Of a DNA stretch of 41,559 nucleotides, positions 17,268-37,217 are shown piece after piece (position 1 is the first letter of the stretch; each line of letters begins with the position of its first letter). The notes beneath the pieces are model-generated. The model was not told the DNA's origin, made no database searches, and saw only the letters and a program-made list of their open reading frames with translations. Location of the stretch: contig CALLZY010000216.1 in the NCBI GenBank assembly GCA_937858715.1, positions 1 to 41,559 on the forward strand. Reading direction: 5' to 3'. Both the position numbers and the translations under genes were made by a program. Source of the stretch: an uncultured Chitinophagaceae bacterium (GTDB taxonomy: Bacteria > Bacteroidota > Bacteroidia > Chitinophagales > Chitinophagaceae).

Positions 17268-17383
17268 AATCTTAATATGTGGCTACCGTAGTACTACGGT
17301 ATTTTATTTCGCAAGCCGCAAGCTGGCCCTCCTCTGTTCATATTCCCCCTTTTCCACCTCAAAACGGGCAGTTCCGGCATATA

Positions 17384-17545
17384 ACAGCCTCCGGCAAAAA
17401 AGAAAACTGCCTCTGGCAAAAAGAAAACTCCCTTCGGCAAAAAGAAAACTGCCTCCGGCAAAAGGTGTTCAGCTTACTGCAACGGGTGTTCGGGCTACTG
17501 CAACGGGTGTTCAGGCTACTGCAACGGGTGTTCAGCTTACTGCAA
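17384..17545. repeat. Two adjoining blocks of 21-bp tandem repeats
   Basis: Block 1 (about 17393-17462) repeats a unit of the form GGCAAAAAGAAAACTGCCTCC three to four times, with a small TGCC-TCC-GGCA hairpin. Block 2 (about 17466-17545) repeats GGTGTTCAGGCTACTGCAACG about four times. Both have a period of 21 bp and no unique spacers, so this is not CRISPR. Both strands stay open in one frame, as expected for a repeat period divisible by three. Confidence 0.8.
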
Positions 17546-19609: not shown

Positions 19610-19686
19610 CTGGTTGCTGGTTTGTTGCTGATGATTGCTTGTTGCTTCTGACATCCGACCTCCGACCTCTGACGTCCGGCCTCTTC
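19610..19686. repeat. Array of eleven degenerate 7-bp repeats
   Basis: Eleven heptamers in perfect register between the divergent menG and engB genes. It starts with CTGGTTG, CTGGTTT, GTTGCTG and drifts to CATCCGA, CCTCCGA, CCTCTGA, CGTCCGG. So two heptamer types (CTGGTTG-like and CCTCCGA-like) share one array. The same types recur near dnaX and inside the E2 gene. Confidence 0.85.
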
Positions 19687-30457: not shown

Positions 30458-32134
30458 TTATAACAACATTGTTACTGGATTTTCCAGAAACTGTTTAAAC
30501 GTTTGCAAGAAGGCAGCACCTGTGGCTCCATCAACGCTGCGATGGTCGCAACTAAGGGTAACCTTCATCACATTGCTAACTGCAAAGCCGTCGCCTTTGC
30601 GCACTACCACCTCTTTAATGCGGCCAACAGCCATTATACAACTGTCGGGTGGGTTAATGATGGCTGTAAATTCATCAATATCCATCATGCCCAGGTTGGA
30701 AATGGTAAAAGTGTTGCCGGTAAATTCATTGGGCTGCAACTTCTTGTTTTTGGCTTTGGTCGCCAGGTCTTTTGTCTCGGCTGAAATTGCAGGCAGGGTT
30801 TTTTGGTCAGCAAAACGTATAACAGGTACAATCAGGCCATCTTCAATGGCTACTGCCACACCCACATGTACATGGCTGTATCTTCTTATTTTATCGCCCA
30901 TCCATGAGGCATTTACCGCAGGGTGGCGGCGAAGGGCCATAGCGGCAGCTTTCACCACCATATCGTTAAAGCTGATTTTTACAGGGCTTAACTCATTCAG
31001 TTTTGTACGGGCTTCTATTGCACCATCCATGTTAATTTCCATTTTAAGATAGAAATGCGGTGCTGAGAATTTACTTTCTGCAAGGCGTTTTGCTATAACT
31101 CCACGCATTTGTGAGTTAGGTATGTCAGTATAGCCTTCTTCGCCGCTAACAGGTACAGGCTGGTAAGTGGCAACTGGTTGTTGTCCCGCCCCAAGCGGGA
31201 TGGTTGCTGGTCGTTGGTCGTTGGTAGCTTGTCGCTGTTGGGTAGCTGTGGTCTGTTGACTATCGGCTGTTGGCTTTGTTTTGTAATTATCAATGTCGGC
31301 CTTTGTAATTCTTCCACCGTCGCCTGTACCATTTATTGTACTGAGGTCAATATCTTTTTCTGCTGCCAGCTTTTTAGCAAGAGGCGATGCTTTTATACGG
31401 CTGTTGCCGCTGGTTGCTGGTTGCTGGTTGCTGGTTGCTGGTTGTTCCAAAGTGGCCGCTGAGGACTGGTTAGCCCCTGACGATTGCTGGGCAGCGCCAG
31501 ATTTTACTGCTGCTACAACTGCTTCAACATTCACTTTGGCTGCGTCTCCAATTATGCATAGTAAGTCGTTAACCAGTATCTTCTCACCTTTTTGTGCGCC
31601 GACATAGAGCAGGGTACCGTTTTTGTAGCTTTCCAATTCCATTGTTGCCTTGTCGGTTTCAATCTCGGCAAGAATTTCCCCTTTCTTTACAGTGTCGCCA
31701 ACTTTTTTATTCCAGTTTGCAATCACACCGGCTTCCATCGTATCACTAAGACGGGGCATTAGCACCACTTCGTCCATTTTTGACAGTTCAGCTACAGGAG
31801 TTTGGGTGATTTTTTCTGGTTGCGGGTTGTCCCCAAGGGGTCCATTAGTACTTGCAGCAGGTTGTGCTCCTCCAAGCAGGCCTGAAATATCTTCACCAGC
31901 ATTTCCAACTATTGCTAACAACTGGTCCACCTGTATTTTGGAGCCTTTATCGCCACCAATATGGAGCAGTGTGCCATCTTTATAGCTTTCGAGTTCCATG
32001 GTGGCTTTATCTGTTTCAATTTCAGCCAGCAGATCACCTTTTTTAACTGTATCGCCCACTTTTTTGTGCCAGGCAGCAATTACACCTTCTGTCATTGTGT
32101 CGCTGAGGCGGGGCATCAATATCACTTCGGCCAT
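30458..32134 (-). CDS. pdhC: Pyruvate dehydrogenase E2, dihydrolipoyllysine acetyltransferase
   Basis: Core of the pyruvate dehydrogenase complex; transfers acetyl groups from lipoyl arms to CoA. 558 residues. Two lipoyl domains (about 1-80 and 120-200) with lipoylated lysines at Lys43 and Lys162 (both ETDKATMELES), a peripheral-subunit-binding domain (about 248-286, ASPLAKKLAAEKDIDL) and a catalytic domain (about 335-558) with DHRSVDG, His531 and Asp535. Linker 2 holds EQPATSN/QQPATSG heptapeptides encoded by five copies of a 7-bp repeat, and linker 3 a degenerate heptamer array plus a palindrome. All domain motifs are intact. It is last in a run of minus-strand genes after the restriction enzyme gene. 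Confidence 0.96.
   Translation of the reverse strand: MAEVILMPRLSDTMTEGVIAAWHKKVGDTVKKGDLLAEIETDKATMELESYKDGTLLHIGGDKGSKIQVDQLLAIVGNAGEDISGLLGGAQPAASTNGPLGDNPQPEKITQTPVAELSKMDEVVLMPRLSDTMEAGVIANWNKKVGDTVKKGEILAEIETDKATMELESYKNGTLLYVGAQKGEKILVNDLLCIIGDAAKVNVEAVVAAVKSGAAQQSSGANQSSAATLEQPATSNQQPATSGNSRIKASPLAKKLAAEKDIDLSTINGTGDGGRITKADIDNYKTKPTADSQQTTATQQRQATNDQRPATIPLGAGQQPVATYQPVPVSGEEGYTDIPNSQMRGVIAKRLAESKFSAPHFYLKMEINMDGAIEARTKLNELSPVKISFNDMVVKAAAMALRRHPAVNASWMGDKIRRYSHVHVGVAVAIEDGLIVPVIRFADQKTLPAISAETKDLATKAKNKKLQPNEFTGNTFTISNLGMMDIDEFTAIINPPDSCIMAVGRIKEVVVRKGDGFAVSNVMKVTLSCDHRSVDGATGAAFLQTFKQFLENPVTMLL
31184..31200. repeat. Palindrome TCCCGC-N5-GCGGGA inside pdhC linker 3
   Basis: Six-base perfect arms with CCCAA between. 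In the gene it encodes the IPLGAG segment of the third linker. It abuts the heptamer array. A second, shorter palindrome CCCCAAGGGG lies in linker 1 at 31831-31840 (PLGD). Confidence 0.7.
31200..31276. repeat. Degenerate heptamer array inside pdhC linker 3
   Basis: Eleven 7-bp units in register on the plus strand, for example ATGGTTG, CTGGTCG, TTGGTCG, TTGGTAG, CTTGTCG. On the coding strand it gives the Gln/Thr/Ala-rich linker (TATQQRQATNDQRPAT). Confidence 0.75.
31410..31444. repeat. Five perfect CTGGTTG heptamers inside pdhC linker 2
   Basis: CTGGTTG repeated five times without a mismatch; on the coding strand CAACCAG. Because 7 does not divide by 3, the peptide repeats every 7 residues (EQPATSN, QQPATSG). 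The same heptamer opens the intergenic array at 19610. Confidence 0.95.
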
Positions 32135-37182: not shown

Positions 37183-37217
37183 GAAGTCAGAAGTCAGAGG
37201 TCGGAAGTCAGAAAAAC
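37183..37217. repeat. Heptamer array upstream of dnaX
   Basis: GAAGTCA, GAAGTCA, GAGGTCG, GAAGTCA, then a decayed unit. It is the reverse complement type of the TCTGAC/TCCGACC units in the 19610 array. The first base lies 5 bases from the dnaX ATG, so it is in the leader. Confidence 0.85.

Follow-up and report, generated by a model that had tools for sequence, protein, structure and literature searches.

Results

The stretch of DNA analysed here, referred to as the window, is a whole contig of 41,559 bp (CALLZY010000216.1, C216 in our numbering) from an uncultured Chitinophagaceae bacterium whose genome assembly comprises 4.42 Mb in 282 contigs. On its minus strand (30458..32134) lies a pdhC-type gene for a dihydrolipoamide acetyltransferase (E2) of 558 amino acids (aa), recognized from its open reading frame (ORF), its translation and its Pfam domains. 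PF00364 (in two stretches), PF02817 and PF00198 exceeded the Pfam cut-off, giving the order lipoyl, lipoyl, peripheral-subunit-binding (residues 247-281) and catalytic acyltransferase domain, which is the architecture of a 2-oxoacid dehydrogenase E2. The public records that best matched this protein were mostly metagenome-assembled genomes (MAGs) labelled Chitinophagaceae or Bacteroidetes, and many of the sequences compared below are MAGs. Gene calls rest throughout on an open frame together with families or homologues; other names were given by eye and are marked as such.

The linkers of this E2 contain heptanucleotide repeats. Linker 2, which precedes the binding domain, holds five perfect CTGGTTG units at 31409..31444 (CAACCAG on the coding strand), for which Tandem Repeats Finder (TRF) reports a period of 7, 5.1 copies and 100% matches, in agreement with an initial annotation made from the letters of this DNA; the array translates as QPATSNQQPATS (residues 230-242). 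When up to two mismatches are allowed, CTGGTTGCTGGTTG occurs seven times in the window, compared with a mean of 0.40 and a maximum of 2 in 100 shuffles. A degenerate array of about 11 units in linker 3 (31201..31276, residues 287-312) gives 43 of 69 matches at lag 7 (44 of 71 when padded to codons), which none of 5000 codon shuffles equalled; for the ragged distal part (31226-31276) taken separately the count is 23 of 44, equalled by 5 of 5000. Linker 1 has two units with one mismatch in 14 positions (31816..31829). An AlphaFold model of modest quality (25 sequences; mean predicted local distance difference test score (pLDDT) 63.8) falls below a pLDDT of 50 at residues 1-11, 89-121, 124-129, 214-245, 287-332 and 474-488, and both longer arrays lie within such segments (214-245 and 287-332). 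Pfam and the predicted structure thus support the placement of the arrays in linkers.

The palindromes that had been described next to these arrays fared less well. The larger one, TCCCGCCCCAAGCGGGA (TCCCGC-CCCAA-GCGGGA, 31184..31200), adjoins the linker 3 array. When the codons of its linker were shuffled, 40 of 1000 rounds matched it, a weak result, and a genome-wide comparison tolerating up to three mismatches gave a single copy; membership in a dispersed palindrome family is therefore unsupported in this genome, and we discarded that idea. The short palindrome CCCCAAGGGG in linker 1 (31831..31840) is present as described, yet 328 of 1000 codon shuffles equal it, so that by itself it is not beyond chance. 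TTGTC precedes the palindromes of this genome. Their inclusion in the repeat family draws its support from relatives (see below) and not from this E2.

Because 7 is not a multiple of 3, neither codons nor selection on residues can account for a period of seven nucleotides, and the repeats must have arisen as DNA. We examined this in E2 genes of relatives. From 110 loci (30 + 80), five without a frame recognizable by motifs and one without a recognized start (L032) were set aside; 104 were kept, removal of 10 duplicates left 94 non-identical genes, and motifs delimited the linkers in 74 of these and not in 20. Two lag-7 matches in a conserved A-rich KNKKL stretch of the catalytic domain (L029, L108) were dropped from the hits. 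Lag-7 arrays were found in the linkers of 7 of the 74 genes, compared with a mean of 0.01 and a maximum of 1 in 200 rounds of codon shuffling, and lags 4, 5, 8, 10, 11, 13 and 16 gave none. The unit types differ by species and include CAACCAG, AACCTCA, AGTCAGG, CAGTCAA, CAACCGT and CAGTCGG. Linkers conserved across distant relatives had been named as the outcome that would mark the repeats as ordinary protein sequence; what we found are low-complexity linkers that vary in both sequence and length, linker 1 ranging from 28 to 133 aa among the 74 genes. Where linkers vary this freely, a 7-nt periodicity is a sharper criterion than length differences in multiples of 21 bp.

On a quick tree of 88 E2 proteins (6 of the 94 left out), the 11 array-bearing rows require 10 changes, at least five of them forced by starred branches, and shuffled labels require a mean of 10.6; these rows include L064 and L110, whose score of 9 is under the cut of 11 used elsewhere. 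Array-bearing rows are therefore no more clustered than shuffled labels, and gain and/or loss has been frequent. Two other observations on E2 concern its domains. A 466-aa E2 (L020, genome G003) lacks most of its second lipoyl domain with the frame open. In the catalytic domain, the E2 of genome G021 (L046/L015) has MPARTGSYGN inserted behind NASW, and L027 has MPATANEDG at this place; the G021 insertion is possibly a small repeat-derived insert.

Since 7 and 3 are coprime, a heptamer array yields the same heptapeptide in all three frames, and loss of a single 7-nt unit would shift the frame. Ten of 12 units computed lack a stop codon on the strand taken as coding, and seven have a stop on the other strand. 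CAACCAG reads as the hydrophilic QPATSNQ on the coding strand (grand average of hydropathy (GRAVY) -1.69) and as the hydrophobic LVAGCWL on the other (+2.11); for CAGTCGG and GGGAGTC the strands differ little in GRAVY. A shared RRYC core of the heptamers was considered; the A/T-rich units of genome G001 do not fit it.

The same unit recurs elsewhere in the genome of the window. With up to three mismatches, (CTGGTTG)x3 has 29 sites, compared with 3 for the reversed control, and these form 11 arrays: seven coding, three just upstream of start codons and one intergenic. The coding arrays lie in the pyruvate dehydrogenase E2 described above, the linker of a SucB-type E2, Fmt (between its two domains), RsmE (between the PUA and methyltransferase domains), AnmK, and the C-terminal tails of a HipA-like and a HipB-like protein. 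The three upstream arrays share their orientation relative to the start codon; one of the genes is ProS. A second unit, GAGGTCA, has 24 sites compared with 0 in the control, at 12 loci. Two of these are coding, one in PolA between the 5'-nuclease and 3'-5' exonuclease domains and one in the N-terminal tail of a pseudouridine synthase; a locus on contig C273 near the contig end was left unassigned as to coding status. Both units thus show the pattern of a satellite, one unit at many loci. As had been suggested, other multidomain proteins also carry heptamers in their linkers: CTGGTTG in Fmt, the SucB-type E2 and RsmE, and another heptamer in PolA.

We then compared the coding arrays with domain boundaries. 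Eight of nine tested arrays (in eight proteins of this genome; the HipB-like one was left out and the second lipoyl span was set by homology) lie outside Pfam domains, an outcome that random placement never produced in 200000 trials. Only the AnmK array falls within a Pfam domain; it aligns as a 6-residue insertion relative to structure 3cqy. All coding arrays of this genome are read in the hydrophilic sense, and in E2, Fmt, RsmE, SucB, AnmK and PolA the frame is open across the array and homologues match both flanks, as was also seen in G038. The earlier proposal of an intergenic repeat family found in frame in flexible spacers, where it gives heptapeptide repeats, is therefore borne out in the E2, in other genes of this genome and in relatives; its corollary that no repeat lies in a folded domain holds for the E2 and fails in general, in view of the AnmK array and, in genome G038, those of ArgS, a P-type ATPase and other proteins.

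Arrays recur at homologous sites in relatives with different units. In the interdomain linker of Fmt (27 of 30 loci gave a frame), heptamers were present in four of 27 orthologues, each with its own unit: CAACCAG in the genome of the window, AAACCTC in G001, ATCTGAA in G021 and CACCATT in G008. SucB linkers, for which 20 places were picked from those listed in the E2 search, contain arrays in four of 20 genomes, and that of G021 adds a palindrome read as LPTGQAG. For RsmE (28 of 30 loci gave a frame, 28 aligned), the genome of the window and G021 share the array site; the former array, whose units are too irregular to pass the lag-7 cut, was located by its pattern. At the position of the AnmK heptamers of the genome of the window, G021 carries short heptamers together with the palindrome CCTGCC-TGACC-GGCAGG. 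Among 30 aligned ArgS sequences the site is hit in G038, G042 and G050, each time by another heptamer; that of the G050 orthologue (81% identical) is degenerate and is accompanied by the palindrome TCCCGATAGCTATCGGGA. In E2, Fmt and SucB of G001 the arrays are of AAACCTC/AAACTTC types, and similar units lie between genes. (CAACCAG)x3 is present in 12 of 38 genomes including that of the window, with further coding cases, among them a stretch preceding a biotinyl domain (G009) and a 1007-aa frame (G021). G021 also has a TCTGACC-type array (L289, 4040-4070) in a 693-aa frame resembling an aldehyde dehydrogenase fusion, where the native sequence may have been similar.

An extreme case is G038 (locus L104), which has 366 (CAGTCGG)x3 sites compared with 2 in the control, and 32 copies of the palindrome TTGTCAYCCCGAGCGTAGCCGAGG compared with 0. 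Two of 30 palindrome loci near contig ends were skipped. Full flanks were available for 28 copies, of which 11 fall outside open frames and 17 inside them, in seven genes: eight are in E2, two each in LpxB, DnaX and the N-terminal tail of a pseudouridine synthase, and the rest in an ABC-F ATPase, a DEXH helicase and MetG, the last between the core and the tRNA-binding domain. Within a 60-base flank, 21 of the 28 have at least 14 of 21 lag-7 matches, a count for which no control was computed. For the heptamers, the best 30 loci of the 366 sites were viewed, with 11 near contig ends and four duplicates or misses left unclassified; nine of the 15 classified arrays are in frame, in eight genes, namely E2 (two arrays), a P-type ATPase, ArgS, biotin ligase, MazG, GcpE, a reductase (between the NAD and 2Fe-2S domains) and methylmalonyl-CoA mutase. 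The two parts of MazG that match structure 3cra are about 40 residues apart. The N-terminal tail of the pseudouridine synthase has repeats both in G038 (L152) and in the genome of the window (L337), with different heptamers in the two and palindromes in G038.

To offset the choice of hits, we analysed blind samples, i.e. stretches taken regardless of repeats. A sample of the genome of the window together with the window itself (323699 bp) gave five lag-7 arrays, none at lags 4-6 and 9-11 and one each at lags 8, 12, 15 and 16; the multiples 14, 21 and 28 gave 2, 6 and 1 arrays, and shuffled sequence gave 0 throughout. Here, as in the E2 linkers, tandem units of 7 nt exceed chance when set against other lengths, as in a heptanucleotide satellite. 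In 216 kb of G038 (L407-L426) there were 16 arrays at lag 7, seven at lag 8, three at lag 11 and none at lags 4-6, 9, 10, 12 and 13; three of 14 after merging are clearly coding (UbiD-like twice and an ABC ATPase, named by eye) and one more is doubtful. G001 gave 12 lag-7 arrays in 315 kb and one each at lags 8 and 9; none of the 11 merged arrays is clearly coding and one is doubtful. G021 gave six lag-7 arrays in 400 kb, and at a lower cut two of eight lie well inside long frames. Period 7 is therefore prominent in each sample.

The window contains further repeats. The CTGGTTG heptamer opens, as the initial annotation had stated, a mixed array between divergent ubiE-like and engB-like genes (19610..19683; 44 of 67 lag-7 matches; genes named by eye), in which GACCTCC units follow. 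A GAAGTCA-type array (37183..37213) lies just upstream of a dnaX-like gene (named by eye). At 17383-17545 are two neighbouring 21-bp tandem arrays, and similar repeats (translated GVQLTAKGV / TPVRSVGTP) adjoin heptamer arrays on contigs C260 (L347) and C196 (L339) of the same genome. Contig C141 (L126, 6755-6809) ends in at least seven GTTCATG copies just upstream of a purE-like gene (named by eye), an apparent assembly break; short-read assemblies may therefore undercount arrays between genes. Contigs C51 (L338) and C247 (L346) seem to show one locus with one array twice, probably through assembly redundancy.

Discussion

The repeats described here are a feature of the DNA that occurs at many loci and within open frames; in the genome of the window they are concentrated in linkers and tails, and they recur in relatives. 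We consider it likely that they represent a heptamer satellite that expands locally, is copied between loci and survives in genes where the frame is open and a disordered insert is tolerated. In such a scenario, Chitinophagaceae-type Bacteroidota would harbor tandem 7-bp repeats, with a few units per genome, between and within genes. Units would multiply locally, probably by replication slippage. Arrays are probably also copied between loci, since one unit recurs at many loci and palindromes accompany arrays; template switching or ectopic gene conversion could achieve this, with palindromes as companions in some genomes. The arrays in genes would then have entered from intergenic DNA, and one would persist only where its net change in length preserves the frame, it is read on an open strand and it yields a spacer peptide that the fold tolerates, as may be the case in interdomain linkers, tails and some loops. 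The arrays of the E2 described here would be read as QPATSNQ-type spacers in linkers that are variable anyway; we infer that they are translated, tolerated or neutral, and part of working proteins. A more far-reaching version is conceivable, though we hold it only tentatively: a mobile heptamer satellite, copied from locus to locus including housekeeping genes, might supply disordered linker peptides in portable and frame-neutral form, the linkers and loops of E2, Fmt, RsmE, SucB, PolA, ArgS, MazG, DnaX and MetG being repeatedly overwritten by the current heptamer and palindrome of each genome.

Several observations weigh against copying into tolerant spacers. No array-free site was seen in a close strain, the nearest full-length E2s being 77-78% identical, and array-bearing E2s other than that of the window all come from MAGs. 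RsmE linkers of same-genus relatives without the array have the same length as those with it, so that simple insertion is not the whole story and overwriting, or insertion with compensating loss, has to be allowed. Most arrays in the blind samples of G038, G001 and G021 lie outside genes, and 31 of 38 genomes have no or one CAACCAG-type site. Arrays also occur inside domains, e.g. about 15 residues into the DALR domain of G038 ArgS and in the hydrolase domain of its P-type ATPase. Finally, the argument from orientation is uneven: five of the 12 units are open on the other strand too, GGGAGTC is more hydrophilic on that strand, and the array in G038 methylmalonyl-CoA mutase is read in the reverse sense.

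The equal RsmE lengths would also suit slippage in situ, by which each linker grows heptamers from local sequence with 7 nt favored and nothing moving between loci. In one survey, heptanucleotides are reportedly the commonest class of long simple repeat in most genomes, and polymerase slippage was proposed for them (PMC4679880); the SucB arrays of G001 and G021 begin on native sequence that already resembles the unit. However, slippage on its own would have to bring one heptamer to 11 loci of a single genome and a second to 12, and the AAACCTC/AAACTTC types of G001 to E2, Fmt, SucB and intergenic DNA, and it cannot produce the near-identical palindromes adjoining arrays at many G038 loci; we regard it as rather unlikely to be sufficient. 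Those palindromes could instead point to a composite element of palindrome and heptamers, similar to a repetitive extragenic palindrome (REP) and transposed by a Y1 transposase of the REP-associated tyrosine transposase (RAYT) type: one palindrome starting with TTGTC accompanies heptamers at many G038 loci (21 of 28, with no control), a palindrome accompanies them in ArgS of G038 and G050, and RAYT-linked REPs within ORFs are known (PMC3733652). In the genome of the window, the one searched for this purpose, the sole Y1_Tnp match is not flanked by palindromes or arrays of this family (the inverted repeats beside it are other ones, and a RAYT link was dropped for this genome), and the palindrome is single-copy. 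Such an element is improbable as the general explanation.

Two further explanations were considered. The arrays could be functional sites, i.e. binding or regulatory DNA or RNA that happens to fall in genes and near starts. Three of the 11 CAACCAG arrays do closely precede start codons with a common orientation, and a regulatory role has been proposed for the TAACTGA repeats of Beggiatoaceae (PMC4679880), but relatives carry different units at a given site, copies are degenerate and most related genomes have none, which makes this reading very improbable. That the linkers are ordinary low-complexity protein sequence, selected as Ala/Pro/Gln/Thr-rich spacers with repeats arising by chance or by duplication of codon units, fits the variable, low-complexity E2 linkers of the relatives examined. 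It is scarcely credible nonetheless, being already contradicted by the lag spectrum: a period of 7 nt is not divisible by 3, composition-preserving codon shuffles fail to produce it, and identical heptamers stand in untranslated DNA.

Tandem repeats with a unit length not divisible by three would be expected to avoid bacterial genes, and here such repeats are found in open frames of many housekeeping enzymes. Heptamer units can be told apart by genome, and the same linkers are hit by different heptamers in separate relatives; the origin of linkers from repeat DNA, the spread of satellites and the tolerance of inserts can therefore be addressed directly. Annotators should note that a heptapeptide like QPATSNQ or QSAVGSR in a Bacteroidota protein can signal repeat DNA and not a conserved function.

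A minisatellite is reportedly part of a miniature inverted-repeat transposable element (MITE) of Porphyromonas gingivalis. We found no description of heptamer satellites that recurrently occupy linkers of housekeeping proteins in Bacteroidota in the open-licence literature, and subscription papers may hold one. In-frame palindromes and heptamer arrays as such are already known. Rickettsia palindromic elements (RPE) are repeat DNA that lies in frame within ORFs likely encoding functional proteins (PMC3733652), as do the arrays here in the conserved and otherwise open genes for E2, Fmt, RsmE, SucB, AnmK and PolA. RPE are palindromes, whereas the unit here is a frame-neutral tandem heptamer with palindromes as companions in some genomes; a multicopy palindrome is found in G038 and not in the genome of the window. 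REPs also occur in ORFs of several species, including tRNA synthetases and uvrA (PMC3733652), and the GTAG/CGTC-tagged REP/RAYT systems resemble our case in having short palindromes, some of them within ORFs. They differ in that the genome of the window shows no GTAG- or CGTC-tagged family with a linked Y1 transposase: TTGTC precedes its palindromes, the larger of which is single-copy, and these repeats do not flank its Y1 gene.

Closer in unit length are the TAACTGA direct repeats of Beggiatoaceae and some Cyanobacteria and Bacteroidetes, multicopy 7-nt tandems like those described here, many of them near start codons (PMC4679880). Read forward, TAACTGA gives stops, which bars it from extending far through a gene in that direction, whereas the coding strand of most units here lacks stops and several units are found per genome. 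The G-rich heptamers of Xanthomonas (GGGAATC) and Nostoc (GGGGAYT) likewise form dispersed, heterogeneous arrays that are mainly intergenic and in some cases intragenic, and have been discussed as G-quadruplexes near ORF ends (PMC4692102). The arrays described here share this dispersed and mostly intergenic distribution with some members in genes; most of their units lack a GGG run (an exception is GGGAGTC in SucB of G021), and the linkers of named enzymes are hit repeatedly.

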